In this document: piece after piece, positions 16,146-47,775 of the stretch
How the letters are laid out: every line of letters begins with the position of its first letter
Position numbering within the stretch: position 1 is the first letter of the stretch
Origin: an uncultured Prevotellaceae bacterium
Lineage (GTDB): Bacteria > Bacteroidota > Bacteroidia > Bacteroidales > Bacteroidaceae
Assembly: GCA_900318115.1 (NCBI GenBank)
Contig: ONJJ01000024.1
Location: forward strand, 1-47,775
Length of the DNA stretch: 47,775 nt
Direction of reading: 5' to 3'
Made by a program: the position numbers and the translations under genes
Notes under the pieces: generated by a model
Seen by the model: the letters and a program-made list of their open reading frames with translations, nothing else
Told to the model about the DNA's origin: nothing
Databases searched by the model: none

Positions 16146-16555
16146 AACGTAGTATTCTCTTCATCTGCTGTCTGCTGGCTTGCGCACTGGCGCAGGCGCA
16201 GCAGACACTGAATATCCATACCACCACGCAGGGCACCGTCAGCATCGCCTTTGCCCAGAAACCCGTCATCACCCTCTCCTCGCCTGCTGTGCTGAAAGTG
16301 ACCAGCGAGCAGCTGACCGTGGAATTTCCCTTTGCCGAGGTGGAACGCATCACCTTCGAAGACGCGCCAGATGCCGTGCCGGCGCTCGTGGAGCGCGACG
16401 GCGCTGCCACTCTCCACATCTATGACCTCTCCGGACGCCTCGTTCAGCAAGTTGCCGCCAAGGCTGGAACTGCCTCCCTTGACCTCTCCAAGCTGCGTCC
16501 CGGCGTCTATGTGGTGAAGGACGGCAAGCGGACGTACAAGGTGAGTGTGAAATAA
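16139..16555 (+). CDS. Small exported protein with T9SS type A sorting domain
   Basis: 138 aa, overlapping the protease gene by 7 bp. Signal peptide ends near AQAQQ (residue ~21). Residues ~25-78 form a short beta domain (TTQGTVSIAFAQKPVITLSS, VEFPFAEVERITFED). Residues ~90-138 are a T9SS type A C-terminal signal (LHIYDLSGRLVQQV, LDLSKLRPGVYVVKDGKRTY, KVSVK). There is no catalytic domain, so the cargo is tiny. Close coupling to the protease suggests a partner role such as anchor, chaperone or inhibitor; this is inference. Confidence 0.75.
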   Translation: MVKRSILFICCLLACALAQAQQTLNIHTTTQGTVSIAFAQKPVITLSSPAVLKVTSEQLTVEFPFAEVERITFEDAPDAVPALVERDGAATLHIYDLSGRLVQQVAAKAGTASLDLSKLRPGVYVVKDGKRTYKVSVK

Positions 16556-28955: not shown

Positions 28956-29000
28956 CTAGCTAGCACTATGATTTTGTTTCAACAGAAGTTCGTACCTTTG
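28956..29000 (+). promoter_or_regulatory. Module promoter P1 (sbcDC): CTAGCTAG ... TACCTTTG
   Basis: CTAGCTAG at 28956-28963 followed by CA, then 27 bp ending AAGTTCG, then TACCTTTG at 28993-29000. Start-to-start distance is 37 bp, identical to P2 and P3. Confidence 0.75.
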
Positions 29001-29059
29001 CCCCCGAAATCAAAAGGTTTCGCCTCGGAATAATTAACCCATAAATAATATAAGGTATA

Positions 29060-30355
29060 ATGAAACTACTGCACACAGCCGACCTGCATCTGGGTCAGAT
29101 TATCTATCAGAACTACGACCGCAGCGACGAGCATGCCCACTTCTTCCGTCAGCTGCAGCGCTGGTGCGAGACGGAGCATCCCGATGTTCTCCTCGTCAGC
29201 GGCGACGTATTCGACATCCAATACCCCTCTGCCGCTGTGAAGAAGGCATTTACGGACTACTTTGTCGATCTCTACCGCTCCTGCCCCTGGCTGCATATCG
29301 TCATCACGGCCGGCAACCACGACTCTGCCTCCCGCATCCAGGCCGACAGTTCCGTGTGGCAGCTGGCCAACGTCCACCTCGTGGGAGTGCCGCCAGCCAC
29401 CAATGTCAGCGCAGACGACGCCAGCTGGCAGGATCAGTACATCGTCCGACTCGACTGCGGCTACGTCGTCGCCCTGCCTTATATGTCCGGCGACCGCAAG
29501 GCCGTGGTGCAGTCCCTCCTCGACACCGTAGCTCGCGAGAATCAGTCCCACCTGCCCGTAGTCCTGATGGCACATCAGGCAATCAAGAACGCAGAGGTCA
29601 CGGGACATCCCTTCGAGGTCGGCACCCTCCGGACGCTCGAGGTCAGCGCTCTCGGCGAGGGCTATGACTACCTTGCCCTCGGACATTTCCACATGCCCCA
29701 GACCCTGGGTCATCCCACCGAGGGCTTCCTGCAGACAGCCACCTACGACGCTCCCGTGGCGAGATATTCGGGCAGCGCGCTGCACGTCAGCTGCGACGAG
29801 ACCTACCCCCACTCCGTCAGCCTCGTGGAGATAGATCGCCACGGAGGACAGGTCGCCGTCCGTCAGCTGCGCATCGATGAGCTGCGCCACTTCCATGTCC
29901 TGCCGCAGGACGACAGCTCCTTCACCTCCTCCGACGAAGCCCTTGAAGGCCTGAAAGCCCTTATTGCAGACAGCCCGCGAGGCTACTTCCGCTTCCGCTT
30001 CGAGCACAATGCCGTACTGCCCCCGAATTTCAGTCAGATGGTTTATGACATCCTGCAACCCACGCAGGAGGAATGGCGCTTCAACCCCAAGATGATCTGG
30101 ACGGGAGAAACAGCCGACACCGCCAGTCAGGAGAAAGAACAGAAATTCGAAGTCGCTGAACTCCAGCAGATGACAGACCCCATGCAGTTCATAGAGCGGA
30201 CGAAAGACCAGTATCCCGACCTGGAGCTGGAGGACGTCCGCCAGGCCTTCGAGGACGTCCGTATGGAACTGGAGCGGATGCGGGAAGAGAAAGAGCATGG
30301 CAAAACCGCCAACTCCCGGAATTCATTCACCGACACTAACCTCCAAAACGAATAA
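29060..30355 (+). CDS. sbcD: Exonuclease subunit SbcD (Mre11 family)
   Basis: 431 aa. Calcineurin-like phosphoesterase motifs in order: HTADLHLG (Asp8, His10), VSGDVFD, TAGNHDSASR, MAHQAI and LGHFHMPQ. The C-terminal part has a capping domain and an acidic, helical tail. With SbcC it forms an ATP-regulated double-strand exonuclease/endonuclease acting on hairpins and blocked ends. sbcC starts 10 bp downstream, so the two are one operon from P1. Confidence 0.93.
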   Translation: MKLLHTADLHLGQIIYQNYDRSDEHAHFFRQLQRWCETEHPDVLLVSGDVFDIQYPSAAVKKAFTDYFVDLYRSCPWLHIVITAGNHDSASRIQADSSVWQLANVHLVGVPPATNVSADDASWQDQYIVRLDCGYVVALPYMSGDRKAVVQSLLDTVARENQSHLPVVLMAHQAIKNAEVTGHPFEVGTLRTLEVSALGEGYDYLALGHFHMPQTLGHPTEGFLQTATYDAPVARYSGSALHVSCDETYPHSVSLVEIDRHGGQVAVRQLRIDELRHFHVLPQDDSSFTSSDEALEGLKALIADSPRGYFRFRFEHNAVLPPNFSQMVYDILQPTQEEWRFNPKMIWTGETADTASQEKEQKFEVAELQQMTDPMQFIERTKDQYPDLELEDVRQAFEDVRMELERMREEKEHGKTANSRNSFTDTNLQNE

Positions 30356-30365
30356 CCATAGCACT

Positions 30366-33300
30366 ATGAAACTGAAAGAACTCCATATCCGCAACATCGC
30401 CTCCATCGAGAGCGCTGACATCGATTTCGAGAACGGGCTGAACGATGCCGTCACAGGCACCCCAGCCCCCATCTTCCTGATCTCCGGCGAGACGGGAGCC
30501 GGCAAGTCCGTCATCCTCGACGGCATCTCCATGGCGCTGTATAAGAAAACACCCCGAATTGCCGGCGTCGCCAACTCCAAAAATAACAAATACCCTGATG
30601 CCAAAGGCGAGACCATCAGCGTTTCAAGTATCGAGCAGTATACCCGCATCGGCATCTCTGAGCGCGATGAGTGCTACAGCGAAGTGGTCTTCGAGGGCAA
30701 CGACGGCAGGACCTATCATGCCCGTCTGTCACTCGGCATGATGAGGTCCCGGGGTAACGAGACCTTCAAACTGAAACACAGGACCCCCACGTGGGAGTAT
30801 CGCATAGACGACGGCGACTGGATCAGGGACAATACCGAACAGGTGCTGCAGCAGGCCGTGGGACTCAGCTTCCAGCAGTTCGGACGCATGGCCATGCTGG
30901 CACAAGGCCAGTTTGCCAACTTCCTCACGGGCGACAAGAAAGAGCGCGAAGACATCCTGGAACAGCTGACCAATACTAAACATTTCTCCGACTACGGCGA
31001 AGCCATCAGCAGACTGTTCAATAAGGCAAAGACAGTTAAGCAGCAGATCCAGACCAGCTACGAAACCGAACTGCCCCACACACTCAGCGAGGAGGAGCTT
31101 GGCCAGCTCCTGGAACAGCAGCAGGAAAGCCAGCAGAAGAAGACGACTCTCGACAGCAGGTTGGCGCTCCTGGATACCCAGCTGCGGCTGTTGGACCAGG
31201 TGCTGCAAGGCGAACGCATCCTGGAAGAATCCCGCAAGAAAGTACAGCAGCAAGAGGCCATCGTGGCGGGCGAAGAGTACCAGTGCAGCAAAACCCTCTT
31301 CACGGACTGGGATGCCACCACACAGCAGCGCCAGCAGTTCCTCCAGCTCCAGCATGCCCGGGAAGAAGAGCAGACCGCACACACAGGCCTGCAGACCTTG
31401 CAGGAAACTTTCCTCCGGCTCTGTGCAGATCTGGCCTTTCGCCAGAACCAGCTCAGTTCCCTGGCAGAGGAGATCCGGCAGCTCGAGGGCTGGATGAAGC
31501 AGCGCCAGCAGCACGACACCTTGTATTCCAGGGCGCATGAAACCGAGGCCCGGATCCAGCAGTACCTCAGCGCACGGAAGAAGTCCGGCGAGCTGACCGC
31601 CTCCCTGGTGAAGGAACATGCCAGGACCGGAGGACTCAGGCAGCACGTGGAGCAAGCCCTCACCCAAGTCAGCGAAGCCGGACAGGCTGTCAAGGCCAAG
31701 GAGGCAGAGATTGATGCCCTCCGACGCAAGCGCGAAGCCATGGACCCGCAGAAGGTCAACGACCAGCTGAGCAAGGCTGAGTCAGACAGGCACGCCCTTG
31801 AGATCCTGCTGGAGGCATGGAAGACACTGCAGGAAGAACAACAGCATGCCGGGCAGCTCCGCAAAGAAATCGAAGCCGTGCAGGAGGCTCTGCAGCGAGA
31901 CAAGGCTCTCTGCGACCAGGCCACGGAAGACTACAATACCAAGTTGGCGGCTGCTGATGCTGCCGGAAAGCGGCTGACGACCATGCAGATGAGTGTGAGC
32001 GAGACCATCGTCAACCTGCGCCGTCGAATGTACAAAGAACATACGGACATCTGTCCCCTCTGTGGACAGCCTGTCGACCACGCCCTCCTCGATGACGACT
32101 TCCAGGGCATCCTCACTCCCCTGGAACAGGAACAGCAGCAGGCCGCGGCAGCGCTGCAGAAAGCCTCGGAACGGCTGGATGCATTGAAAAAGACCTATGC
32201 CGGGAAACAGGGAGCCCTGCAGGAACGGCAGAAGCAGCTGACCCTGGCAGACCAGAAGAATAAAGCCACCCGCGAACGCATCATCGGGCAGGCATCCGAG
32301 GCAAAATTCGACACCCACGAACCTCTCGACGGACAAGTCAGTGCAGCCCTGCAAAAGCTGGATGCAGAGATCGGGGCGCTGCAGGCCGCCCAGCGCGAAG
32401 CAGAGCGGTTGCAGGGAGAAATCAACCGCCTGACAGGAGAAAAGAAACCCCTGGACACCCGCAAACTCGAAGCAGAGAAAGCCAAAGTCAGGGCTGATGG
32501 TGAGCTCAATGCCAATGCCAACGAGATCTCGCGACTGGAGAAAGAGTGCCAGCGCATAGCACAGGAGTGCTCCGAACAAGAACAGGCGATTAGCTACCAG
32601 CTGGCAGGCTATGCCGAGGACTGGAAGACCGACGCGGAGGCTACCCTGAAGAACCTCAGGAAGGAGGCAGAAGAATACAACCGGCAGAAGGAACAACTAC
32701 GGGAACACCTGCAGCGGAGGACATCGGACGAGAGCCGCATAGCCACCCTCACCAAGCACCGCCAGGACATCCTTGCTACCTGCCCGGAATGGCCGTCGGA
32801 AGCCCAGCCCCAGAGCTTCGCCTGCGAAGACATCCATGTGGAATGGACAGACCTGCTGGGCAAGGCTTCGGCATTCGTCGCCACACTCGAGAGATGCCAT
32901 GCCGACATTACCCGGGCCGAAGCGTTCCTGGGTGCTTACTATCAGGAAACAGGCAAGACGGAGCAGACGCTGCAGGCGCTGACAACGCAGGAACAGCAAG
33001 TGGTGAAAGCCCGCCGCTTCGTCACAGATATCGATGCCAGACTGCACTCTTTCAAGGATGATATCGCGGCGGCTCAGAACAGGATCAATGCCGCCTTGCA
33101 GGAACTCGGAATCGCCGACCGCACGGCATTGCCCGACAAGCAGAAGCTCGAGGAGGAAAGGACATCCACCAACACCGCCAGGGATGAGATCCTGGGCATG
33201 CTGGGGCAGGTAAAAATCCGCCTGGAGGCACATCAGCAAAGCGCCGAGACACTGAAGAAGCTGAAGACACAGCTGGATGAAGCCGAGCAGCAGTTCAATC

Positions 33301-33812
33301 GGTGGAAACGCCTGGACTCCTACTTCGGAGGCACACGGTTCCGCACCCTGGTGCAGACCTACATCCTGCGACCGTTGCTGAACAACGCCAATATCTACCT
33401 GGAGCGGATCACCGACCGCTACCACCTCACCTGCAACGAGACCAACGAGCAGCTCAGCATCCTTGTCCACGACCACTACAACAGGAATCAGATTCGCAGC
33501 GCTACCGTGCTCTCCGGCGGCGAACGTTTCATGATCTCCCTGGCTCTCTCCCTCGCACTCTCCTCCCTCAACCGTCCCGACATGAACGTCAACATCCTCT
33601 TCATCGATGAAGGCTTCGGCACCCTCGACGAGAGCACCCTGGGATCCGTGATGGCCACCCTGGAGAGGCTGCAGGAGATTGCCGGTCAGTCCAACCGGCG
33701 GGTGGGCATCATCTCCCATCGCAAGGAACTCGAAGAACCCGTTCCCGTCCAGATCCGTGTCGTCCGGAAAGGTGAAGGACGCAGCCAGGTGGAGATAAAG
33801 AACCAGTATTAA
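30366..33812 (+). CDS. sbcC: Exonuclease subunit SbcC (Rad50 family)
   Basis: 1148 aa. Start set at ATG 30366 (MKLKELHIRNIASIES), 10 bp after sbcD, rather than the upstream in-frame ATG within sbcD. Walker A GETGAGKS (41-48), long coiled coils (~190-1000), zinc hook CPLC at 563-566, ABC signature LSGGE (1049-1053), and Walker B ILFIDEGFG with Asp ~1081. The D-loop TLDE follows. It is the SMC-like ATPase partner of SbcD. A rho-independent terminator follows. Confidence 0.95.
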   Translation: MKLKELHIRNIASIESADIDFENGLNDAVTGTPAPIFLISGETGAGKSVILDGISMALYKKTPRIAGVANSKNNKYPDAKGETISVSSIEQYTRIGISERDECYSEVVFEGNDGRTYHARLSLGMMRSRGNETFKLKHRTPTWEYRIDDGDWIRDNTEQVLQQAVGLSFQQFGRMAMLAQGQFANFLTGDKKEREDILEQLTNTKHFSDYGEAISRLFNKAKTVKQQIQTSYETELPHTLSEEELGQLLEQQQESQQKKTTLDSRLALLDTQLRLLDQVLQGERILEESRKKVQQQEAIVAGEEYQCSKTLFTDWDATTQQRQQFLQLQHAREEEQTAHTGLQTLQETFLRLCADLAFRQNQLSSLAEEIRQLEGWMKQRQQHDTLYSRAHETEARIQQYLSARKKSGELTASLVKEHARTGGLRQHVEQALTQVSEAGQAVKAKEAEIDALRRKREAMDPQKVNDQLSKAESDRHALEILLEAWKTLQEEQQHAGQLRKEIEAVQEALQRDKALCDQATEDYNTKLAAADAAGKRLTTMQMSVSETIVNLRRRMYKEHTDICPLCGQPVDHALLDDDFQGILTPLEQEQQQAAAALQKASERLDALKKTYAGKQGALQERQKQLTLADQKNKATRERIIGQASEAKFDTHEPLDGQVSAALQKLDAEIGALQAAQREAERLQGEINRLTGEKKPLDTRKLEAEKAKVRADGELNANANEISRLEKECQRIAQECSEQEQAISYQLAGYAEDWKTDAEATLKNLRKEAEEYNRQKEQLREHLQRRTSDESRIATLTKHRQDILATCPEWPSEAQPQSFACEDIHVEWTDLLGKASAFVATLERCHADITRAEAFLGAYYQETGKTEQTLQALTTQEQQVVKARRFVTDIDARLHSFKDDIAAAQNRINAALQELGIADRTALPDKQKLEEERTSTNTARDEILGMLGQVKIRLEAHQQSAETLKKLKTQLDEAEQQFNRWKRLDSYFGGTRFRTLVQTYILRPLLNNANIYLERITDRYHLTCNETNEQLSILVHDHYNRNQIRSATVLSGGERFMISLALSLALSSLNRPDMNVNILFIDEGFGTLDESTLGSVMATLERLQEIAGQSNRRVGIISHRKELEEPVPVQIRVVRKGEGRSQVEIKNQY

Positions 33813-33823
33813 CACCAACAGGC

Positions 33824-33850
33824 AGAGAGGAGGCCACCCTCCTCTCTTTC
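33824..33850 (+). terminator. sbcDC terminator
   Basis: AGAGAGGAGG (33824-33833) pairs perfectly with 33838-33847 around CCAC and ends in TTTC. Confidence 0.8.
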
Positions 33851-33860
33851 TGTTGTCACT

Positions 33861-33912
33861 ACCACATCCGATTTCGCAAATGATATACTGATATACTGGT
33901 ATGTTGATATAC
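33861..33912 (+). repeat. Boundary repeat R2
   Basis: The 42-bp block 33861-33902 is identical to 41791-41832. It comprises ACCACATCC, GATTTCGCAAATG and the 8-bp TATAC tandem (33884, 33892, a variant at 33900, 33908). Confidence 0.85.
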
Positions 33913-33925
33913 TGATTGACAAATT

Positions 33926-33970
33926 CTAGCTAGCACGATTTGCTCAGATAACAGAAAGTCCGTACCTTTG
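33926..33970 (+). promoter_or_regulatory. Module promoter P2: CTAGCTAG ... AAGTCCG-TACCTTTG
   Basis: CTAGCTAG at 33926-33933, TACCTTTG at 33963-33970, 37 bp start-to-start. It precedes the hypothetical gene at 34020. Confidence 0.75.
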
Positions 33971-34019
33971 CAGCCGAAAACATACAACCCCACGTTTAAC
34001 CATTAAAAGAATAAGCCCT

Positions 34020-34559
34020 ATGAAAGAAATTAAAGTCCTATTGGCAGCATGCCACGGTTATAGCCACTTCGGCAGCTACTCAAGTCATGACACCGTGGAT
34101 CTTGAGGTCAGCGACGAGGCTCTGGCAGCACTGAGGAAAATCCACCCCTCCGAGGCATCCTGCGAACAGGTGGCTGAGGCCATCAGCCAGGGAGCCACCG
34201 AACTCCAGGATGTACACGACCAGGCCTGCGACGAATACTATAATATGGTAGAATGCTTCTGGCTGCACGAGGCCGACAACGAATGTGAGCGGGAGGCCCT
34301 GGAGCAATGCATCGACGACGACATCGAGGAGGGACTCTTCGAGCCCGATATGACCATCGAGGAGTTCAGCCAGATGAAGGAAGAGGAAGGATGCGACCTC
34401 GACGACGAAGAGCTGGTGGAAGAATACCACTTTTATATCATGGACGACTATGCCGCCTGGGTCCACTGTCAGGACGATAACGAATTCGTGGCCTGTCGCG
34501 TGGGCTGCGACCTCGATGGCATCCGCGACGAACCTGCCAGCTACACCCTCAAGTACTGA
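34020..34559 (+). CDS. Acidic, Cys-rich hypothetical protein
   Basis: 179 aa, unrecognised. Strongly acidic (runs such as CIDDDIEEGLFEPDMTIEEF and KEEEGCDLDDEELVEEYHFY) with about ten cysteines but no spaced zinc motif. No signal peptide or membrane helix. The acidity could suggest DNA mimicry, but nothing specific supports it. First gene after P2; the small membrane protein follows 63 bp later. Confidence 0.65.
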   Translation: MKEIKVLLAACHGYSHFGSYSSHDTVDLEVSDEALAALRKIHPSEASCEQVAEAISQGATELQDVHDQACDEYYNMVECFWLHEADNECEREALEQCIDDDIEEGLFEPDMTIEEFSQMKEEEGCDLDDEELVEEYHFYIMDDYAAWVHCQDDNEFVACRVGCDLDGIRDEPASYTLKY

Positions 34560-34622
34560 CCTCTCGCCGTCCTCTCCCCCTCCAAACGTCAAACCATTGT
34601 CAAAAACCAATTCAAGAACATC

Positions 34623-34871
34623 ATGAAGTACATTTTCCACAACGACGACCTCTCCTACGTCATCGAGGACGAGAAGGAGCTCAACAAGTTCACCCGGCGC
34701 TCCGTCCTCGGCTGCAGCATCTACATCATCGCACTGATTATCGGCGGAATCCTACTCCTCCTGGGCATGATATACCTCTTCTACCTGATACTCGAGTATC
34801 CCGTAGATATCTTCTCGTGGTTTCTGGACTTGCTGATGAGTATCATCAACTTCTTCGGACCGCCCGTATAG
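34623..34871 (+). CDS. Small membrane protein, unknown
   Basis: 82 aa. A polar N-terminus (FHNDDLSYVIEDEKELNKF), a strong membrane helix at ~33-56 (YIIALIIGGILLLLGMIYLF) and a second hydrophobic segment at ~60-78 (VDIFSWFLDLLMSIINFF). No known family. Likely co-transcribed with the gene at 34020. Confidence 0.6.
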   Translation: MKYIFHNDDLSYVIEDEKELNKFTRRSVLGCSIYIIALIIGGILLLLGMIYLFYLILEYPVDIFSWFLDLLMSIINFFGPPV

Positions 34872-34946
34872 TCCAAAAAACTCCGGTATGAGACCACGAA
34901 CCAGCAAAAAGATTGCTCAATCCTCGTATTTCTGCCCCTATTTTTC

Positions 34947-34954
34947 TATCTTTG
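34947..34954 (+). promoter_or_regulatory. -7 box TATCTTTG of the AddB-like gene
   Basis: TAnnTTTG match 27 bp before ATG 34982. It lies downstream of the longer-frame ATG at 34913 and so supports the later start. Confidence 0.6.
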
Positions 34955-34981
34955 TGCCCGAATAATCAATACAGAACAGTT

Positions 34982-37645
34982 ATGAACATCGTTTATTCAC
35001 CCGTTTTCAACTCCACGAGCTACGTCAACCTCGAGCAGCGCCAGGGTCAGTGGCTCGGCCTGAAGGTGTGCGGTTCGGCCGAACTGCTCTCCGAACTCGA
35101 GCTCCGCGCAGGCATTGCGGTTGCGGAGCAGAGCGAACCCGAACGCCTGGTCGCTTTCCACGCATCCGTGAAGAATAAGGTAGCCGGCACCGTCTTCGAG
35201 CAGTCGTTCCGAACCGATGAGGTGGGTGTCACACGTCAGCTCATGACGTGGTGCGACAACCTCCTCATGGCGGGATGGGACCCTGCCGCACCTGCCCCGT
35301 CCGACAAACTCGAGGCCCTTGCCGAAATCGCCAAAGGCGTGCAGGGCAAGCATGTGGCCCAGCGCTGGCAAGAGCTCACTGCCTGCCTCCGCAATCATAC
35401 CATCTTCAGCAACGACGATGTCATCGAAGTCCATACCGCAGAGCTGATACCGCCCGTCATCAAGGCTGCGCTCGTCCAGCTCTCCTCGCAGGCCACCGTC
35501 AACTACGTGACCACTGAAGGCACCACACCCTCAGATGTCAGCGTATATCATTTCAAGACACGCACCCAGGCCTACCAGTGGTACCTCTCCCAGCCCGAAG
35601 CCCTCGCTGATGTCAGCGTCACCGTCAGCGCCGACAACCGCATCCTCAACGATATGGCCATAGCCATGGGCCGCCCTGCGGTCAATTCCAAGTCGCAGAA
35701 CAGCAATCCCCAGCTGCTGCAGCTGTTCAAGTTGGGTTTGTCGCTCTTCGCCCGCCCGTTGAACGTCTACAACCTCCTCTCCTACCTTCAGGTTCCCGGC
35801 AACCCGCTCGGCGGCGTTGCCTATAAGCTGGCGCAGGTCTTGGCCGACGAGGGCGGCATCAACGAGAAATGGCAAGAGGTCATCTCGAACTACGACTTCA
35901 CCGATGACGAAGGCAAGGACCGCCGCGACGACAAACTCGCCTTCATCGCGATGATCAATGCCGACTACTCCCCCGAGCGCATCCCTGTCTCCGACGTCAG
36001 GACCTACACCGGCAAGCTGGCCCATTGGTGCGACCTCCTGCGCTACTCCGGCCATGTCGCCGACGAGCGCGAGGAGCAGCTCGTGGTCCTGGCAGCCTTC
36101 TGCCGTTCCCTGCTCGCCATCCTCCCCGCCGAGGGCTTCATCACCTCCGACAACCTCAAGACCCTTGTCGACGGCATCTACCGCCCCCAGTCCTTCACCC
36201 ACATGCGGGCGCAGCAGGGCTCGCCCGACGTCGTCTCAGACGTCACACAGCTGGCCGACCGCGCCGACACGGTGTGCTGGCTGGGATGTGTCGGAGCCTC
36301 CGTGCAGCCCTATCCCTTCGATTTCCTCAACCAGACAGAATGCGAGAGCCTCAACCTCTCCGGCATCGCCATCCCTGCCAAGTCCGATTTCTACACCCTT
36401 CACCACCGGCTGCAGCTGGAGGCCCTGAAGAACATCATCCGCTTGGTGCTCGTCACCTGGGAGTTCGACGGCAATGCCCGCCAGGAGGAACACCCGCTTG
36501 TCACCGAACTCAGGCAGCAGCACAAGGCCGACTGGCACACCCTTTTCCACGCAGACGAGCAGCCCAACCTCCCGACCGTCAGCGGCGATGTCTCAACCCT
36601 TGAGCCGCAGACCTCCTATCAGCTCTCCTCGATGGCCGCTCTCCGTCGCGACAAAGAGAGTTATTCCAGCGTCTCCCTCCTCATCCAGCACCCGTTCGAC
36701 TACACCATGGAATATCTGCTCCGCCTCAAGGAACCCACAGTGGGCAAGCTGCCCGACCTCGACACCACCAAGGGCCTTGTCGCACACCTCGTGGTGGAAA
36801 CGCTGGTGAAAGAACATCTCGGACAGATGGCCGACTACTATCTCAGCCTCGGTGCCGCGGCACGCGACGAGCTGTTCAACGCTGCCATAGCCCAGAAAGG
36901 AGCCATACTCATGCTACCGGAATATCACATCGAATGCCAGCAGTTCAAGGCCCTACTCCACGACAGCCTCACCGCCCTGGCCCGCACCATCAAGCATCTG
37001 CGCCTGATACCTCTCGGCAGCGAGGTCGAACTGAATGTCGAACTCCCCACCATCGGCAACTTCCAGGCCAAGATCGACCTCCTGCTTAAGGATGCCGCCG
37101 GCCGCTATGTCATCTTCGACATGAAATGGTCTGAGAAAAATTCCTATCGCAAATACCTTGAGGAGAACACAGCCATGCAGCTCGTACTCTATCGTCAGGC
37201 CGTAGAGCAGCACTTCAAAGGCGAGGTCGCTGGTGTCGGCTACTACCTCTTCCCCATGATGACCTTGTTCACCACCGATTACCCCGATTCCGACCACGTC
37301 AAGCAAGTAACGGTGAAAGCCGACGCAGCCGTGCGGAACCTCTTCGCGGAAGTACAAAACTCCTACGTCTACCGTCGCACCTCCTTGGACGATGGCTTTA
37401 TCGAGGAAGGCGAACTGACCGACATTGCCGAACTCCCCTACACCACGGACAAACCATCCGACCAGCCGCTCTATCCCATAAAAGCTGACTCTAGCGACAA
37501 GGATAAGTCAAAGAAAAGGAAAGCCTGTCCCTACGTCAAGAAGGACAAGCCCCCCTTCGCCAAGCAGAAGCCCAAATGGGACAAGCCCACAGATCCCAAG
37601 GAAATCAAGACTACTCACCCCATCCTAAAAGGCAGACTCGTATGA
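34982..37645 (+). CDS. AddB-like protein with C-terminal PD-(D/E)XK nuclease
   Basis: 887 aa. The start at 34982 is fixed by the -7 box at 34947-34954. The first ~600 residues look like an inactivated UvrD-like helicase fold with no Walker A, as in AddB (VCWLGCVGASVQPYPFDFLN, LKNIIRLVLVTWEFDG). The RecB-type nuclease is at ~590-810: AKIDLLL with Asp699, YVIFDMKW with Asp713 and Lys715, then the QLVLYRQAV motif. A Lys/Pro-rich tail follows. The four-Cys iron-sulphur staple of canonical AddB is not visible. Its stop overlaps the AddA-like start (ATGA, 37642-37645), so they are presumably complex partners. Confidence 0.8.
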   Translation: MNIVYSPVFNSTSYVNLEQRQGQWLGLKVCGSAELLSELELRAGIAVAEQSEPERLVAFHASVKNKVAGTVFEQSFRTDEVGVTRQLMTWCDNLLMAGWDPAAPAPSDKLEALAEIAKGVQGKHVAQRWQELTACLRNHTIFSNDDVIEVHTAELIPPVIKAALVQLSSQATVNYVTTEGTTPSDVSVYHFKTRTQAYQWYLSQPEALADVSVTVSADNRILNDMAIAMGRPAVNSKSQNSNPQLLQLFKLGLSLFARPLNVYNLLSYLQVPGNPLGGVAYKLAQVLADEGGINEKWQEVISNYDFTDDEGKDRRDDKLAFIAMINADYSPERIPVSDVRTYTGKLAHWCDLLRYSGHVADEREEQLVVLAAFCRSLLAILPAEGFITSDNLKTLVDGIYRPQSFTHMRAQQGSPDVVSDVTQLADRADTVCWLGCVGASVQPYPFDFLNQTECESLNLSGIAIPAKSDFYTLHHRLQLEALKNIIRLVLVTWEFDGNARQEEHPLVTELRQQHKADWHTLFHADEQPNLPTVSGDVSTLEPQTSYQLSSMAALRRDKESYSSVSLLIQHPFDYTMEYLLRLKEPTVGKLPDLDTTKGLVAHLVVETLVKEHLGQMADYYLSLGAAARDELFNAAIAQKGAILMLPEYHIECQQFKALLHDSLTALARTIKHLRLIPLGSEVELNVELPTIGNFQAKIDLLLKDAAGRYVIFDMKWSEKNSYRKYLEENTAMQLVLYRQAVEQHFKGEVAGVGYYLFPMMTLFTTDYPDSDHVKQVTVKADAAVRNLFAEVQNSYVYRRTSLDDGFIEEGELTDIAELPYTTDKPSDQPLYPIKADSSDKDKSKKRKACPYVKKDKPPFAKQKPKWDKPTDPKEIKTTHPILKGRLV

Positions 37646-40600
37646 AAAACATTCAGTATATCAACGCCGGCGCAGGTTCCGGCAAGACCACCAGGCTCAC
37701 ACAAATCCTGTCCGAGCAGCTCAGTGGTCCCTACAAACCCTCCGAGGTCATCCTCACCACCTTCACGGAGCTGGCAGCCTCCGAGTTCCGCGAGAAGGCC
37801 CGCGAAGCCCTCTACAACAGCGGCCATGCCGACACGGCAGCCGAACTGGATTCGGCAGCCATCGGCACCGTCCATGCCGTAGCCCTCAGCTTCATCCAGA
37901 AGTACTGGTACCTGATAGGCGTATCACCCGATATGAAAGTCATGTCGGACGACGACCTGCAGGTCTACATCAGCGAGTCCCTGGGCAACTACGTGAACAC
38001 CGGGGACCTGGAGTTCTTCCGCTCCTATCAGCGCTTCTTCGACTTAAGAGACGCCCTGTCGCATGTCAACCTCGATTTCTGGAAAGACCATCTGCTAACC
38101 ATTATCGACAAGGTCAACAACTACAATGTCGACATCGAGCGAAGCAAGGCGGATAGCTGCCAAGTCGTTGAGCAGGTGTTCAATAGCAACACAGCCCTGA
38201 ATCACGAGCTGCTTAAACTTTTTGCCGATAAATTTATTTCAAAATTCGAAGGATATAGTGATAACGTCAAGAAATATGATCAATCCATATTTGATGGTCT
38301 GAAAAACAGCCCCATCACCTTGGCCACTATCATAAAACTATACAAAGAGCTTACTAAAGAAAAACCTTATTTAGGCACGACCAACAGAAAAGACCTTAAG
38401 TCTGCCATCGGCGACACAAACTATGACGCCCTCGTTGCCAACCTCAAGGCCTATCAGATGTCCTCTGTCGGCGACGACAGCCCCGGCGGCATGATGAAGC
38501 GGCTCATCAACATCCTCTTCGACATCGCCCGCCGATGGAACGACGACTTCCACACCTTCAAGGCACAGCGCCATATCATCGACTACAACGACATGGAACG
38601 CCTGTTCCTCGACCTCCTTCATAAGCCCGAGGTGGAGGCTGAGATTCGCGGTACATACAAGCTGATGATGGTCGACGAGTTCCAGGACTCCAACCCCATC
38701 CAGCTGGAGATCTTCAAGCGCTTGTCCGACCTCATGGAGCAGAGCTACTGGGTCGGCGACCCCAAGCAGAGCATCTATGGCTTCCGAGGGGCGGATGTGC
38801 AGTTGGTCAACGACATCACACGCCAGTTCTACGACGAACATCGTGACCCTGCACTCAACCTCACCAATTCCAACCTGTCACAATCCTGGCGCACCCGCAA
38901 GCCGCTGGTCGACCTCACCAGCCAGTGCTTCACACGCGCCTTCGAGGGCATCATAGATAAGGAGAAGGTGGTTCTCAAGGCCGCCCGGACGGAAAATGAA
39001 CAGCTCTCGCATCCGCTGTCCCACTGGAACTTCCGCATTTCCAATCAAGAAAAGTTTGCCGAGAAAGTAGCCGACCGCATTCATCTGCTGCTCGATAGCC
39101 AAACCAAAATCCAGATTAAGAACACAGACGAGTTCCGTGCTATCCGCCCTGGCGACATTGCCATCCTCTGTCGTACAAACGGTGAATGTAAGAATTTTGC
39201 CAAGGCGCTGATCAGCAAAGGCATCCCCGTATGCTTTGTCAACGAAGACATCCTTCAGCAGACGGAAGTGCAGCTGGTCCTCGCCCTGCTGAAGTTCATG
39301 GTCGATTCCTCCAACAAACATGTGCGTGCCGACCTCCTGCGCCTGCTCCAGGACACCTCCACCGAGGACATCCTCCAGCAGCGCCTGGACTACATGGTCA
39401 GCCTCAGACAGCAGCAGGAGAACGCTGCCGACGAGGCCGACAGGCCCAAGGACCAGTGGCTCGACACAGACTGCCCCCTCATCAGCCGCCTCAAGGAGTT
39501 CAGGCAGACCGTGCGGAACCTCTCCGTCAGCGACCTCCTCGACAGCATCATCTACGTCCTCGCCCTCCCCGAGGTGGTGGCCAAATGGGGCGATGTCGAC
39601 AACCGCCGGCAGAACCTCCACACCCTCAGCACCCTCGCCCGCAACTACGACGAACACTGCCTCCAGATGGGCATCGGGGCCTCCGTGGGCGGACTCCTCA
39701 CCTACCTCTCCTATGCCACCGTCGAGAACAAGGTCGACAATGCCACCGATGCCGTCAAGGTACTCACCTACCACAAGTCAAAAGGCCTGGAGTGGTACTA
39801 TGTCATCCTTTCCTCGTTAAGCAACGACAGCCTCGCCGACAAGGAATTCACCAAGAAGAACTTCTGGGGAGTCCATGAGCTGCGCCATCCCCAGCCCAGT
39901 GAGCAATACGGCTACGTCATTCAGTTCCTGCCCTCCATCATCAGCAGCGGCAACACATCTCTGCCGCAACCCATCATCGACGAATGCAAGAAATTGCCCT
40001 TGTACCAGACCTTGCTGGACAAGGAGCGCAACGAACTGCGCCACCTCCTCTATGTAGGCGTCACCCGTGCCCGGGACTACCTCACCACGCTGAGCCTTCA
40101 GAAATCTGCCGACAAGCAGCCGGTACTCGCCTGGATAAGGAACACCGGTATCTCCGATGGTGCCGTAGACAGCGATGCCTCCGCGCTCTGGCAGTACCAC
40201 GATCTGGCTCCTGCCTTCGAGAACCTCCCAGATGTCGATAGCGCCGAGGATACCGAGGATACCGAGGACGCCGCAGCCACCGCAACCCCACACTACACCC
40301 GCTATGCCTACCCCGACAGCCCCGACCTCACCCGCGATCCCAAGTACCTCTCCCCCAGCCGTCTGCCCAAGATAGAGTTCGCCCCGGAGAACATCCGTAT
40401 CCTCGCAGATCTCGACTGCCGTATCGAGCCCTACAAGACCAAGCCCGAGACGGAAGCGGCGGCAGGAACCTGCATCCACAACATCTTCGCCGTCTACGAC
40501 CCCGCCCTCTCCCGCGAGGAAAATGTCGCCCGCGCCACACGTATCCGCAATGGCAACAATATGTACGAGGTCATCCCCGATGTCGCTAAGGTCGTCACCT

Positions 40601-40941
40601 CCATCGAAAACCTCTACGCCTGGCTGGAAGCCACCTATGGCAATCCCACCGCCATCAAGCATGAAGTCCCCTTCATCCAGCCCCTCCCCGGCCAGGTCGT
40701 GCATGGCGAGATAGACCTCCTCTGGTACCTCAGCGACCGCGAGTGCGTGCTCGTCGACTTCAAGAACTTCCCCGGCAGCAGGGCCACCATCACCAACCCC
40801 GACAACCCACACTACGCCGGCCACTATGCCTCCCAGCTCCAGGCCTATCGCGATGTCCTATCTGCCTCCGGTCTCACCGTCCGCGACACCCTCATCTACT
40901 ACTCCGTCATGGGCTGTCCCGTCCGCCTCAACCTCGGCTAA
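37642..40941 (+). CDS. AddA-like UvrD/RecB helicase-nuclease
   Basis: 1099 aa, starting at the ATG overlapping the AddB-like stop. SF1 motifs: Walker A INAGAGSGKTTR (~7-18), Walker B MMVDEFQDSNP (Asp345), VGDPKQSIYGFRGAD, QSWRTRKPLVDL, VLTYHKSKGLEWY and LLYVGVTRARDY. The C-terminal RecB-type nuclease has HGEIDLLW (Asp1025), VDFKNF (Lys1041) and the SQLQAYR motif. The N-terminus differs from the usual Bacteroidota AddA (YKASAGSGKT type), suggesting a divergent paralogue. Bases ~38,150-38,400 are clearly AT-richer than the rest. Confidence 0.88.
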   Translation: MKNIQYINAGAGSGKTTRLTQILSEQLSGPYKPSEVILTTFTELAASEFREKAREALYNSGHADTAAELDSAAIGTVHAVALSFIQKYWYLIGVSPDMKVMSDDDLQVYISESLGNYVNTGDLEFFRSYQRFFDLRDALSHVNLDFWKDHLLTIIDKVNNYNVDIERSKADSCQVVEQVFNSNTALNHELLKLFADKFISKFEGYSDNVKKYDQSIFDGLKNSPITLATIIKLYKELTKEKPYLGTTNRKDLKSAIGDTNYDALVANLKAYQMSSVGDDSPGGMMKRLINILFDIARRWNDDFHTFKAQRHIIDYNDMERLFLDLLHKPEVEAEIRGTYKLMMVDEFQDSNPIQLEIFKRLSDLMEQSYWVGDPKQSIYGFRGADVQLVNDITRQFYDEHRDPALNLTNSNLSQSWRTRKPLVDLTSQCFTRAFEGIIDKEKVVLKAARTENEQLSHPLSHWNFRISNQEKFAEKVADRIHLLLDSQTKIQIKNTDEFRAIRPGDIAILCRTNGECKNFAKALISKGIPVCFVNEDILQQTEVQLVLALLKFMVDSSNKHVRADLLRLLQDTSTEDILQQRLDYMVSLRQQQENAADEADRPKDQWLDTDCPLISRLKEFRQTVRNLSVSDLLDSIIYVLALPEVVAKWGDVDNRRQNLHTLSTLARNYDEHCLQMGIGASVGGLLTYLSYATVENKVDNATDAVKVLTYHKSKGLEWYYVILSSLSNDSLADKEFTKKNFWGVHELRHPQPSEQYGYVIQFLPSIISSGNTSLPQPIIDECKKLPLYQTLLDKERNELRHLLYVGVTRARDYLTTLSLQKSADKQPVLAWIRNTGISDGAVDSDASALWQYHDLAPAFENLPDVDSAEDTEDTEDAAATATPHYTRYAYPDSPDLTRDPKYLSPSRLPKIEFAPENIRILADLDCRIEPYKTKPETEAAAGTCIHNIFAVYDPALSREENVARATRIRNGNNMYEVIPDVAKVVTSIENLYAWLEATYGNPTAIKHEVPFIQPLPGQVVHGEIDLLWYLSDRECVLVDFKNFPGSRATITNPDNPHYAGHYASQLQAYRDVLSASGLTVRDTLIYYSVMGCPVRLNLG

Positions 40942-41010
40942 CCCCCCCATAAACCTAATATTTACCCTCGATGTCCACAACTATTTACAATATTAATCCC
41001 CCATACCCTT

Positions 41011-41757
41011 ATGAAAGAATTAACCACACTCAGCGAGTATGATCAGGAACGCTACGCCATCTGCGAGCAGCTGGCCAGCGAGTATTTGACCAGGAAAGAA
41101 AGGAAGAAGTGTTACCAGGTCCGTGGCAAAGACTGGGAAGACAGGGTCTCCGGAGAGCGTCCTTGCAGCATTTTCATTCCCCTGACCGATGAGTACGTAG
41201 CCGCACTCAAGGCAGAGATGATTGAAGTCGCCAACGAGCTCTGTCCCGAAGACCCCGTCCATTCGTGGGAGGAATTCTCGAAGTACCTCAGTGATATAGA
41301 AACCTTCAATTTTTGGGAAACGCTGGACAGCAAGGCGGACTCCCGGTTCCAGGAGGTATCGCGGGAAGCCGATTCGCACGGGATTGTTGAACCCTCCATC
41401 GACCTCGACAACGTACACTACCTCTATCGGTTCTCCTTCTATTATTTCGACGATGAACAGCAGCAGATGACCCGCGAAAACTACTTCGAAGTACTGAGCG
41501 ACGAAGAGTACGTCCAGTTGCTGGCTCTCCAGCTTTCCTTGAGCCGGGGATTCACCTTCAACAACCTCTTCTCCATCGACCCCGAGTTGGCACGGAGATT
41601 GAACGACAATATCGATTACGGATTTTTCGAAATCAATTGTCATGGCAGTAAGACCAAGCCCTTTGTCATCCTCTTCGATGAGATCACTGAGGATGCAAAA
41701 GGACTCCAGGAAGAAGCCCAAAAACGCTTGTTGGACAGATCGCTGAGAGGAGAGTAG
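41011..41757 (+). CDS. Hypothetical protein, end of AddAB-like operon
   Basis: 248 aa, unrecognised, soluble and acidic. Distinctive segments: RYAICEQLASEYLTRKERKK near the N-terminus, VHYLYRFSFYYFDDEQQQMT and FEINCHGSKTKPFVILFDEI. No membrane or signal segment. It lies 69 bp after the AddA-like gene without an intervening promoter, so probably in the same operon. An inverted repeat begins in its last codons (41743-41752 with 41770-41779) but lacks a T-run. Confidence 0.65.
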   Translation: MKELTTLSEYDQERYAICEQLASEYLTRKERKKCYQVRGKDWEDRVSGERPCSIFIPLTDEYVAALKAEMIEVANELCPEDPVHSWEEFSKYLSDIETFNFWETLDSKADSRFQEVSREADSHGIVEPSIDLDNVHYLYRFSFYYFDDEQQQMTRENYFEVLSDEEYVQLLALQLSLSRGFTFNNLFSIDPELARRLNDNIDYGFFEINCHGSKTKPFVILFDEITEDAKGLQEEAQKRLLDRSLRGE

Positions 41758-41790
41758 TCCATCGCCACCCTCCTCTCAGCCTGCTTCACC

Positions 41791-41834
41791 ACCACATCCG
41801 ATTTCGCAAATGATATACTGATATACTGGTATAC
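41791..41834 (+). repeat. Boundary repeat R3
   Basis: 42 bp identical to R2 (41791-41832), including GATTTCGCAAATG and TATAC at 41814, 41822 and 41830. It lies at the convergent border between the AddAB-like operon and the AAA+ gene. Confidence 0.85.
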
Positions 41835-41862
41835 TGGCATGCGGGTCCGGGGTGAATAGTTA

Positions 41863-43623
41863 TTAATTCTTTTTATACGTGAACCCTATCGTCCGGCTCT
41901 TGTCCATCAGCTCCGCCTCGCAGTACTTCCCGATGACATCCAGCGAAGCCTGCTGCCCCGTGAGGATGAAGTCCACGGTGAGTTTGCGGGCGATGTTCTC
42001 GATCTGTCCGCCGGTGAAGTCATACCGAGCGGCCAGCACACGGGCTTCCTCCTCCGTGATGTCCTCCAGTATGCTGTCCCACAGCTTTGCCCGGACCTCC
42101 TCCTTCGGCTTGTGGAACTCCACCTTATACAGGAAGCGGCGCTCGAAAGCCTTGTCCAGGTTGCTGGTGAGGTTCGTCGTGGCGATGAGGATGCCGTCGA
42201 GGTTCTCTATCTCCTGGAGGATGATGTTCTGCATCGCGTTGTCCATCCTGTCCACGGCCTGTTCTATTTTTTCCGTCCGTTTGTTGATGAGCGCGTCGGC
42301 CTCGTTGAAGAAGAGGATGGGCATCACCTTGCATGCCTGGCAGGCACGGCGGTACTGCTGGAACACCTGCTTGATGTTCCTCTCGCTCTCGCCCACGAAC
42401 TTGTCGCGCATGCCGGCGATATTGACCTCCATGATGTCGCGTCCCGTCTGGCGGGCAATCTGCAGCACCGTCTCCGTCTTTCCCGTTCCGGGAGCGCCGT
42501 AGAACAGGCATGCGAATCCCTGTCGCAGTCCCTTTTCCCTCAGGCGCTGCTGAATCCTCCAGAAATGATCCCGGTCCAGGAAACGCTGCAGCTGCTCTAT
42601 CTGCTCGCCATCCTCGTCGTTGTAGAACATACTCTTCACCTCGATGGAATTATGACGTTTCAGGTTGTGCAGCTCTTCCTGGCTGGGAACGTTGCGCTTC
42701 GTCTTGGGCTCGTAGCCTTCCAGCAGTTCCTCCTTGCACTTCCTTGTGAGTACAAACTGTTCGTTATTGGCCATGCCTTCGTTGCACTTGGGCTCCAGCA
42801 GACCGTCCTCGATGAGCGGGTGCGTCCCGTCCTGGAGTTCCCGCTGAAGTTCGTCGGTATCTATGATGTCCACATAGCAGTCGTTCAGGCATGGAATGGT
42901 CAACCCTTCATCTTTCGTGTTGGCCCACAAATTGTATTCATGGATGGCTAACAGCAGCAGGGACTGAATGTGGATGTCATCCTTGTAGTCGTAGATCTTC
43001 TGGCAGAGGGGCAGCTGGGGGTTGGCTTTGCACAATATGACCATCCACTCCTCGATGTCATCCATGCCGCAATCCCGGGTGAATAACGACTTCCGGAGGT
43101 AGCGGCTCATCACCTTGATGAACTCCTCAACCGTCAGGTTGTCGATCTTCTCCGGCACAAACACCTCGTTGTGGCGCAATGCGGTGACGACGCCGAACTG
43201 CAGTTTGAATCCCTGGAACTTGCCTCCGTTTTCCCTCACGGCCTTGCGTATCAGCCATCTTCTGGTCACCAGGGCGTCGATGTCGTCCGTGTAGGTCATG
43301 ATGGAGATGCGTGTGCAGTTCAGGAACTTGCCAATCCCCCTCCAGCTCATGGCCTCGCCGGATTCCACGAGTATGGCCAGGATGACAACCTGCATCTTCG
43401 TCATGCCGAATTTCTTCGAGAGGTATCCCAGGGGTTTCTTGGCAGACTCCCAGAACTCTTCGGAGAGCGCGCAGCCCTCAGCCAGTTCCACGATCCTGCT
43501 CAGTGCGGTGATGATGTCCCATCGCGCGGGTTCCTTATATTCTTTAGGCTGCCATGGAGCCTTTGTCTCCACGTCGGGGAAGTCCGTCGTGGACTGGAAA
43601 CGTTGTATTGCTAGTTTTCTCAT
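41863..43623 (-). CDS. AAA+ ATPase with N-terminal winged-helix-like region
   Basis: 586 aa. N-terminal ~350 residues are helical with winged-helix-like signals (FGMTKMQVVILAILVESGEA, FLNCTRISIMTYTDDIDALV). The AAA core is at ~365-560: Walker A GAPGTGKTETV (~375), Walker B MPILFFNEADALI in which Asn replaces the usual Asp before Glu, sensor 1 IATTNLTSN, and an arginine finger in AFERRF. Similar AAA proteins of the FtsH/SpoVK-like group carry this NE variant. It is transcribed from its own TACCTTTG promoter (43666) and precedes no other gene. Confidence 0.8.
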   Translation of the reverse strand: MRKLAIQRFQSTTDFPDVETKAPWQPKEYKEPARWDIITALSRIVELAEGCALSEEFWESAKKPLGYLSKKFGMTKMQVVILAILVESGEAMSWRGIGKFLNCTRISIMTYTDDIDALVTRRWLIRKAVRENGGKFQGFKLQFGVVTALRHNEVFVPEKIDNLTVEEFIKVMSRYLRKSLFTRDCGMDDIEEWMVILCKANPQLPLCQKIYDYKDDIHIQSLLLLAIHEYNLWANTKDEGLTIPCLNDCYVDIIDTDELQRELQDGTHPLIEDGLLEPKCNEGMANNEQFVLTRKCKEELLEGYEPKTKRNVPSQEELHNLKRHNSIEVKSMFYNDEDGEQIEQLQRFLDRDHFWRIQQRLREKGLRQGFACLFYGAPGTGKTETVLQIARQTGRDIMEVNIAGMRDKFVGESERNIKQVFQQYRRACQACKVMPILFFNEADALINKRTEKIEQAVDRMDNAMQNIILQEIENLDGILIATTNLTSNLDKAFERRFLYKVEFHKPKEEVRAKLWDSILEDITEEEARVLAARYDFTGGQIENIARKLTVDFILTGQQASLDVIGKYCEAELMDKSRTIGFTYKKN

Positions 43624-43665
43624 AGTGGTGGGGTTTAAATGTGAGACTTATGTTATTTTCGGCGG

Positions 43666-43680
43666 CAAAGGTACGGACTT
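43666..43680 (-). promoter_or_regulatory. Promoter of the AAA+ gene: AAGTCCG-TACCTTTG
   Basis: Minus-strand TACCTTTG (43666-43673) with AAGTCCG directly upstream (43674-43680). CTAGCTAG is absent; a different element, CTCCA-TG-TGGAG, lies at 43696-43707. Confidence 0.65.
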
Positions 43681-43761
43681 TCATTCCTTCAATAGCTCCA
43701 TGTGGAGTGGTTATTTCCATTTTGGAAACAACCACTTCTTTTTCCAACTTATGCGTCCGGC

Positions 43762-44499
43762 TCAGTCAACAAACATATTGTACACCAGGACCCCGTCGTA
43801 CTTCTCGTCCTCCTCGAACACCTCCTTGGGTACGAACTCGCCCGTCTCCTCGACGACATAACCCTCCACGCCTTCCTTGTGGAAGATCATATTCTCGTCG
43901 ATATCTCCTTCTACGCTGTCGTACTCCGGCATCACGAAGTAGCCAGTCGAGGTGTCTATACCGCCGAACTTGCCGTCGCGCTCCAGTGGCATGAATCCAT
44001 TCATGGACTCATAGTATTTCTCCATCACGTTCGGAACGACCACTTCGCCTTTGGGGTTGACCAAGCCGAAATGGCTCTCGTCGCCGTCCCACCATGCTAT
44101 GTAGAGTCCGGCATAGTGGTACCACTTCAGCAGGTCGAAGCGGAAGTCGCAGATCACCCTTCCGGTGCCGTCGGCGGCCACGATGCCGTACTTGCCGTTC
44201 TTCATCGCAGCCACCTGGGACATTCGGGATGCATAACAATCACCCTCGAAGGTGAAGCCTTCATACTCGGCGGGAACCAGGATCTGTCCGGCAGGATCCT
44301 TGACTCCCTTCTTGCCCGTGGCAGGATCCTCGAACACATAGTTCGTCAGGTCGTAAGCGTCGACGATGGCATTCAGTTTCTCCATCACCTCATTTAACTG
44401 CTCGTCGGTCATTCCCCGCTCGAGGAACTTCTTTTCCAGTTTGTCATACTCATTCAGCACTTCCATGCTGGGTCTCGATAATATCTTTTCTTCTTCCAT
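43762..44499 (-). CDS. WG-repeat protein
   Basis: 245 aa. Start set at 44499 (MEEEKILSRPSMEVLN) because the -7 box at 44563 lies in the longer frame. Residues ~80-215 show WG/KWG-type repeats: GQILVPAEYEGFTF, NGKYGIVAADGTGRVICDFR, HFGLVNPKGEVVVPN, DGKFGGIDTSTGYFVMPEYD. An N-terminal helical part (NEYDKLEKKFLERGMTDEQL) precedes them. WG repeats form a beta-propeller-like binding surface. Controlled by P3, so grouped with sbcDC and the 34,020 gene. Confidence 0.75.
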   Translation of the reverse strand: MEEEKILSRPSMEVLNEYDKLEKKFLERGMTDEQLNEVMEKLNAIVDAYDLTNYVFEDPATGKKGVKDPAGQILVPAEYEGFTFEGDCYASRMSQVAAMKNGKYGIVAADGTGRVICDFRFDLLKWYHYAGLYIAWWDGDESHFGLVNPKGEVVVPNVMEKYYESMNGFMPLERDGKFGGIDTSTGYFVMPEYDSVEGDIDENMIFHKEGVEGYVVEETGEFVPKEVFEEDEKYDGVLVYNMFVD

Positions 44500-44562
44500 A
44501 GTTGTTGTTATTTTAAAATGAATAATAAGGTATTGAACACCGGTTGGATTTGAAATCCGCTG

Positions 44563-44611
44563 CAAAGGTACGGACTTGCTGCGACCCTGGCAAGCTTTGC
44601 TAGCTAGCAAA
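44563..44611 (-). promoter_or_regulatory. Module promoter P3 (WG gene): palindrome ... AAGTCCG-TACCTTTG
   Basis: TTTGCTAGCTAGCAAA (44596-44611) is a perfect 16-bp palindrome. Its CTAGCTAG core starts 37 bp before TACCTTTG (44563-44570), the same as P1 and P2. It is the most symmetrical of the three sites. Confidence 0.8.
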
Positions 44612-47090: not shown

Positions 47091-47775
47091 TTAGCCTAAT
47101 GGCGATGCAAAATTAGTCATTTTTTCTGATTCCGTACATCTTTGATTACTTTTTTGACGCAGAGAGGCTCCTTTTAGTTCGAATCGTACACTTGTGTGCA
47201 CCAGACGGTCAAGGATGGCATCTGCGGCTGTGGTGTTTCCCTTCATCACGTCATACCAGTCGGATACTGGTAACTGTGAGATCATGATGGTGGCTTTCTG
47301 CCCGTGCCTGTCCTCTATGATTTCCATGAAGTCAAGCAGCTGCTGACCGTCGAGTACATTCATGCCAAAGTCGTCCCGTATGAGCAGGTCTGTCTGCGCA
47401 AGCTTGGCAAAGAAACGGTGCAGTGTGCTGGAGATGCGTGCAAGGGCAATCTCTTCGAAGAGGCGGTAGACATTGTAGTATGCCACCCGTTCATGCAGGC
47501 CTGATGCCCCAGGGCAGTACCGAGCCAGCTCTTGCCTGTTCCTGTAGCTCCTGTGATGAGCACGGATACTCCCTTGCGTACATAGTCGCATGTGGCAAGG
47601 TTGAGCACTTTCTGCTTGTCCACTCCGCGCTTGCCGTCGTAGATGACCTCGCTGATTGAGGCCTGATAGCGGAAGCGGGCCTTCTTCACGTAGTGGTTTG
47701 CTGTCTCCTTGTTGATGCCGACTATACCGGCTGCCTTGCGGTTGGAGACGCCATCCTGCTTCAAGAGCAGTAGTT
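47091..47775 (-). pseudogene. istB: IS21-family IstB-like gene, frameshifted, cut by window edge
   Basis: The upstream frame (to 47360) gives a short HTH-like start (GVSNRKAAGIVGINKETANHY) that resembles IstA, then IstB-type FRYQASISEVIYDGKRGVDK and the P-loop LITGATGTGKSW. Near 47482-47493 the homology jumps to another frame (VAYYNVYRLFEEIALARISS, LLIRDDFGMNVLD, TIMISQLPVSDWYDVM) that runs to 47091. A single indel separates the two. The frame is open past 47775, so the gene starts outside the window. IstB is the AAA+ helper of IstA transposase. Confidence 0.8.

Follow-up and report, generated by a model that had tools for sequence, protein, structure and literature searches.

Three promoters of one gene island in a 47,775-nt stretch of DNA (the window) from an uncultured Prevotellaceae bacterium (contig ONJJ01000024.1, assembly GCA_900318115.1) carry the same ten bases, CTAGCTAGCA, at exactly the same distance from their -7 boxes. 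Judged from the sequence comparisons set out below, CTAGCTAGCA is probably the operator of a DNA-binding regulator that would govern a small regulon confined to one repair/defence-type island in two close Bacteroidales genomes, a reading to which we assign a probability of roughly 0.6.

An identically spaced element at the promoters of one island

The element had been noticed in an initial annotation of the window at the promoters of sbcDC (P1), an orphan acidic protein (P2) and a WG protein (P3), and its positions and identical spacing were confirmed by pattern search: CTAGCTAGCA-N27-TACCTTTG, in which TACCTTTG is the -7 box, is found at 28956 (+), 33926 (+) and 44607 (-), with an expected number of 0. 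At P1, the motif occupies 28956..28965 (+), about -48 to -39 of the promoter, and the box 28993..29000 (+); at P2, the motif lies at 33926..33935 (+) and the box, which has a TTG 23 bp upstream, at 33963..33970 (+). The P3 box, also preceded by a TTG at 23 bp, lies at 44563..44570 (-), and the P3 motif (44598-44607) is contained in the 16-bp palindrome TTTGCTAGCTAGCAAA at 44596..44611 (-), which had been reported correctly as well. The P1 and P2 motifs are identical, and the 16-bp palindrome is retained, in a close relative carrying the same locus (G088; 3.7 Mb, 97% complete); the wider palindrome is confined to P3, and the invariant part is the asymmetric CTAGCTAGCA. With the -7 box counted as about -11 to -4, as its name implies, the 8-bp palindrome CTAGCTAG falls at about -48 to -41, centred near -44 and directly upstream of the -33 region. 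The three transcription starts had been described as unlinked; they are not, as all three fall within 15.7 kb of one island.

In the window, CTAGCTAG occurs at 28956, 33926 and 44600-44607, three times against an expected 0.39, a count reached by none of 100 shuffles, and all three occurrences are the exact motif and spacing at promoters. In the window's own assembly (G000; 3,329,193 bp in 74 contigs, 87% complete), P1-P3 account for three of the four copies of CTAGCTAG and are the only ones in the whole genome that are followed by a TANNTTTG box after 18-42 bp; allowing up to three mismatches added three places on other contigs, all of weak resemblance. The whole of G088 likewise holds four copies, all of them at island promoters on contig C5 and all with the exact spacing: the orthologues of P1-P3 and a fourth promoter, P4 (C5:78019-78063, minus). 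As would be expected of an operator, the motif is found at the promoters of several operons rather than scattered over the genome (three of four copies of CTAGCTAG in G000, four of four in G088), and the genome-wide scatter of motif and spacing that the initial annotation had considered as the contrary case was not seen, both being confined to island promoters in the two genomes.

Across 88 aligned columns of P1-P4, the longest invariant runs comprise 11 columns (CGTACCTTTGC), 10 columns (CTAGCTAGCA) and then 3; ten of ten motif columns are invariant, versus 9 of the 67 outside the motif and the CGTACCTTTGC run. When all columns were shuffled, 51 of 100,000 permutations produced an invariant run of at least 10; with the box columns excluded, 0 of 100,000 did. 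The test treats columns as independent and so gauges the contrast rather than a strict probability. Between G000 and G088, 4 of the 27 spacer bases of P3 differ and the motif is unchanged. The element is conserved against diverged flanks, another property of an operator, with a weight limited by duplicated copies. On the window and genome counts and the column shuffles, a chance origin of motif and spacing was rejected.

What is ordinary at promoters of this genome was assessed on 18 stretches of G000 (348,732 bp, about 10% of the genome, on 4 contigs), which contained 36 background promoters, in each of which a TTG precedes TANNTTTG by 21-23 bp and an open reading frame (ORF) follows. The consensus of 42 promoters (these 36 and six from the window) ends ..cG-TAcCTTTGCaGC..aAAA, so that neither the CG preceding the box nor the GCAGC following it is distinctive. 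When the P3 region served as query, further promoters of G000 and G088 were recovered that have AAGTCCG-TACCTTTGCAGCG or GCAGCGGATTTCAAA and no CTAGCTAG. Sequence like the AAGTYCG that had been counted into the motif is generic before boxes in G000, and P4 has GAGTCCG; AAGTYCG and the bases downstream of the -7 box, as ordinary promoter features here, were rejected as motif parts. An internal negative is provided by the promoter of an AAA ATPase gene, whose -7 box (43666..43673, -) has AAAGTCCG-TACCTTTGC in common with P2 and no CTAGCTAG. Among 138 box-plus-ORF sites (background and window), eleven 8-mers recur at one offset in at least three sites; three of them compose the motif, and eight consist of A/T runs or of the promoter-like GTGCAAAG.

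The -7 boxes of P1-P4 (TACCTTTG) fit TAnnTTTG. A TTG lies 23 bp before the box at P2, P3 and P4, which is also the background peak, and 19 bp before it at P1. P1 thus lacks a TTG at the usual -33 place, and the spacing between motif and -7 box is preserved even at a promoter whose -33 element is displaced. At two other promoters, one on contig C20 of G000 and one on contig C33 of G088, a common word, GATACAACGTAT, lies near the expected -33 and is possibly another operator.

Each of the promoters P1-P4 keeps two CTAG tetranucleotides, contrary to their scarcity in the genome: the 349 kb of background holds 50 CTAG against 594 expected from trinucleotides (ratio 0.08, about 12-fold depleted), and 1 of 172 background boxes has a CTAG at -60..-20. 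Elsewhere in G088, at C5:84239-84302 (about 16239-16302 of locus L018), eight CTAG stand at 9-bp steps in TTCTAGATT/CTCTAGAGG-like units, despite the CTAG-poor lineage.

Distribution, copying and rival explanations

Several observations weigh against an operator or narrow its reach, beginning with its distribution. Among 139 genomes of the genus, CTAGCTAG was found 24-34 bp before TANNTTTG in three (G000, G088 and G014) and at the exact spacing in G000 and G088 alone; the scan of related genomes for which the initial annotation had called thus recovered the same three sites plus P4 in G088, and no exactly spaced site in the other 137. The G014 match, which we take as chance, is single and AT-rich, has a spacing of 25 rather than 29 and lacks the CA. 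The retention in more distant relatives that would mark an operator was not seen in these 139 genomes, and at the sbcD locus of G130 no CTAGCTAG lies upstream of the gene within the stretch examined. The absence in the genus is less firm than it looks, because most of its genomes are incomplete (18 of 139 pass a 90%/5% quality line). With one mismatch allowed, 5 of 399 family genomes match: besides G000 and G088, three genomes show a single mismatched hit apiece. The control, the pattern read backward, has 10 hits in these 399 genomes. A search of the GTDB species collection (84,980 genomes, with the window's own possibly left out) for the pattern with TANNTTTGC gave eight matches in seven stretches, four of them in RUG11694 (CACXXT010000005.1), which is apparently G088, and four across records of Clostridia, Ktedonobacteraceae (2) and Calothrix. 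Among the genomes searched (genus, family and GTDB species), credible copies are present in G000 and G088 only. Viral contigs gave 0 matches to the strict pattern, and spread by phages was rejected on this result.

Contig C59 of G000 carries the remaining copy of CTAGCTAG, about 90 bp beyond an ORF that presumably resembles thioredoxin reductase; this copy has no TANNTTTG-type box near it. Pfam scans of chosen window and island proteins detected no DNA-binding regulator besides two extracytoplasmic function (ECF) sigma factors, encoded at 5406-5939 (-) and 18952-19503 (+) of the window; in contrast to these, the -7 boxes of P1-P4 are of the housekeeping kind. TrpR-type operators have CTAG half-sites. 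The TrpR family (PF01371) had no homologue in the 5 genomes tested, with the control positive in E. coli and B. subtilis, and TrpR was rejected as the regulator.

The promoters are, moreover, related by copying. A gapless alignment of P2 with P4 covers 100 bp at 81% and takes in TGATATACTGATTGACAAATT ahead of the motif, and in G088 the alignment of P1 with P3 spans -150..+99 (183 identities, 54 mismatches, 29 gaps). With the G000 copy of P1 the latter starts at -68, its greater length in G088 being due to a Sel1-like gene region divergent from P1 in that genome. P1-P3 and P2-P4 both have an upstream score of 50, which 1 of 630 background pairs attains, and the scores of the other four pairs are 12-21, reached by 60-595 of the 630; the highest, 21 for P3-P4, is attained in 7 of 500 shuffles but by 60 of the 630 background pairs. 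After the box, P3 and P4 agree at 16 of 20 bases, and no background pair is as high. Duplicated promoters also occur elsewhere, as an upstream score of 81 was recorded for one background pair and all ten bases at the motif's place are shared in one pair. The four promoters have two upstream contexts and represent about two independent events, not four; an independent origin of all three window sites was rejected, P2/P4 and the upstream parts of P1/P3 being homologous.

The step from exact spacing to one regulator, as originally argued, is weakened accordingly, because P2 and P4 are duplicates, P1 and P3 have upstream sequence in common and the spacing is in part inherited; what stands of it is a single shared cis element and a candidate small regulon. 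The regulon reading remains plausible: it gains from P4 and from the genome-wide rarity of the motif, is partly explained by copying and is limited to two genomes.

A purely historical account, by which promoter segments were copied in a repeat-rich island by duplication or gene conversion and CTAGCTAGCA travelled as a passenger that no regulator reads, strikes us as unlikely, though it is the strongest of the rivals. The P2-P4 and P1-P3 alignments and the two upstream scores speak for it, and so does an 8-bp tandem repeat of the TGATATAC family, seemingly an island-specific intergenic repeat, which stands at 28814, 33882, 41812, 41820 and 46972 of the window (four intergenic gaps, all +; GATATACTGRTATACT has 5 hits there). 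Because such repeats are present in the G088 island and in none of the 18 background stretches (349 kb), the island appears to share and spread intergenic DNA. Inheritance fits P1 poorly, however: its spacer agrees with the others at 8-12 of 27 bases, a background level equalled by 32-77% of background promoter pairs, yet its ten bases and their distance are perfect. The spacers of P2, P3 and P4, by comparison, agree at 16-21 of 27 bases (the G088 copy of P3 counted). Upstream, the cross pairs between P1/P3 and P2/P4 are at background level, and the strong depletion of CTAG in G000 also argues against a mere passenger.

That the motif might instead be a core-promoter enhancer (UP-like or an extended -33), recognized directly by RNA polymerase rather than through a dedicated regulator, seems improbable to us. 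Its position directly upstream of -33 would suit such a role, and P1, with no TTG at the usual place, might need help; but a general element should be common, and motif plus box occur genome-wide at these promoters alone, with CTAG all but missing from the corresponding region of background boxes. We give very little credence to CTAGCTAG as a recombination or insertion site through which promoter-plus-gene modules joined the island. The local similarities of P3-P4 and P2-P3 do start exactly at the motif and run downstream, and the two genomes diverge upstream of P1, where the Sel1-like stretch is found in G088 alone. Against this, the homology between P2 and P4 extends across the motif in both directions, that between P1 and P3 comes up to it from the upstream side, the downstream similarity is partly generic promoter sequence, and the Pfam scans contained no recombinase save an IstB-type fragment at 47091-47591. 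Equally far-fetched would be a methylation target, the doubled CTAG switching promoters by methylation state: none of the sixteen 4-bp palindromes is more depleted in the background than CTAG, but its rarity alone says little for methylation, because CTAG is described as relatively rare in E. coli and Salmonella as well (PMC5337935), and the C5 methylase encoded in G088 adjoins an EcoO109I-type enzyme.

Genes of the island and their proposed regulation

P1 drives sbcD (29060..30355, +; Metallophos in Pfam), which has matches (E<=0.001) in 7 of the 61 genus genomes searched, G000 counted; three exceed 50% identity, and the G130 copy has 57%. It is followed by sbcC (30297..33812, +), assigned by sbcC models below their curated cut-offs. 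The P2 gene (34020..34559, +) encodes an acidic protein of 179 amino acids with 49 aspartate plus glutamate and 9 lysine plus arginine residues, which has no family match at the thresholds used and is present in G000 and G088 alone among the 139 genus genomes; its predicted structure was unusable (mean predicted local distance difference test score (pLDDT) 40.3, from 2 sequences). A protein of 82 amino acids with a hydrophobic stretch and no Pfam family (34623..34871, +) is likely part of the P2 operon. Beyond it lie a gene for a PD-(D/E)XK nuclease (34913..37645 as the ORF is listed, +, with the start probably at the in-frame ATG at 34982), for which fold and neighbour suggest the name addB, and an addA-like UvrD helicase gene (37576..40941, +; addA models below curated cut-offs); a TATCTTTG box at 34947, without CTAGCTAG, is these two genes' own box. 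P3 precedes the gene for a WG-repeat-like protein of 245 amino acids (43762..44499, -; PF14903 below its cut-off), with matches in 14 genus genomes that, among the matches listed, are close in G088 only (86%) and elsewhere reach 26-34% over part of the protein. A Sel1-repeat gene (44741..46951, +) is divergent from P3, and in G088 a related Sel1 stretch is divergent from P1. The product of the AAA ATPase gene (41863-43623) resembles IetA anti-phage ATPase models, with scores far under the NCBIfam cut-off.

The P4 gene of G088 encodes an acidic protein of 272 amino acids with a distant relative in G069 (32%); it has no useful BLASTP match to the P2 acidic protein (E 0.17) and a weak similarity to a 248-amino-acid protein at 41011 (E 2e-4). 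Downstream lie genes for a 668-amino-acid superfamily 1 (SF1)-helicase-like protein, with weak Nhi, NERD+UvrD, AbiO and GajB matches, and for a 1067-amino-acid protein of no family; the three genes (L018:3690-9980, minus) are a possible undescribed defence operon. Between P3 and P4 of G088, beyond the Sel1 gene (L017:12780-18896), an EcoO109I-type restriction enzyme, a C5 methylase, a GIY-YIG protein and a DruE-like protein are encoded. The island is a variable repair/defence-type region.

If CTAGCTAGCA is an operator, a candidate local regulator would bind it and activate transcription, co-inducing the genes behind it on some signal. A centre near -44 is close to the class II activator position, which makes activation likelier than repression. 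The proposed members are sbcDC (P1); the acidic orphan and the small hydrophobic protein, perhaps with transcription reading on into the addBA-like genes (P2); the WG protein (P3); and, in G088, the acidic, SF1-helicase-like and 1067-amino-acid proteins (P4). The regulon would have grown partly by the copying of promoter segments inside the island (P2/P4 and the upstream part of P1/P3), after which selection may have preserved the motif and its spacing from the -7 box as the remaining sequence diverged. More speculatively, and as an unlikely reading, a LexA-unrelated, lineage-specific activator bound at CTAGCTAGCA (about -44) might induce a combined double-strand-break-repair and anti-phage island in response to damage or phage, with new members recruited by a copied promoter cassette.

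Promoter segments copied within the island would bring unrelated genes under one control element, and, if the site is an operator, the 16-bp palindrome offers a handle for protein capture on Bacteroidales control of repair/defence-type genes. The element is worth testing because known Bacteroidetes SOS regulators are reportedly missing from the Bacteroidales (PMC8565304); the LexA-unrelated activator, if real, would supply a defined operator in that order.

Comparison with known systems

A literature search by title and start of abstract, with subscription papers outside it, returned no report of CTAGCTAG as such an operator; in one paper, on the mycobacterial regulator EthR2 (PMC8634040), these letters appear 6 times. 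The island resembles LexA-type SOS regulons, in which short palindromic operators stand at DNA-repair promoters and one regulator serves several operons. The Bacteroidetes SOS regulators, however, recognize another motif with another dyad spacing, CTAA-N5-TTAG or GGA-N5-TCC, and both groups are described as absent from the order Bacteroidales (PMC8565304); as the element reads CTAGCTAGCA, a Bacteroidetes LexA-like SOS box was rejected by sequence. BrxR, which uses inverted-repeat sites, provides a precedent for a single regulator acting at multiple positions within a defence island (PMC9122601). BrxR and its WYL relatives differ from the arrangement proposed here, with 11-bp inverted repeats separated by a 5-bp spacer, a first site downstream of its promoter and repression as the outcome; PafBC, in the same account, is an activator of DNA-damage genes (PMC9122601). 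No WYL-domain protein was present among the Pfam-scanned proteins, which did not include every ORF, and no genome-wide WYL search was made. The Bacteroidales housekeeping promoter is described as having TTTG at -33 and TAnnTTTG at -7 (PMC7366714): P1-P4 share this kind of -7 box, and CTAGCTAGCA, upstream of -33, is an addition found in the genomes searched at these promoters only.

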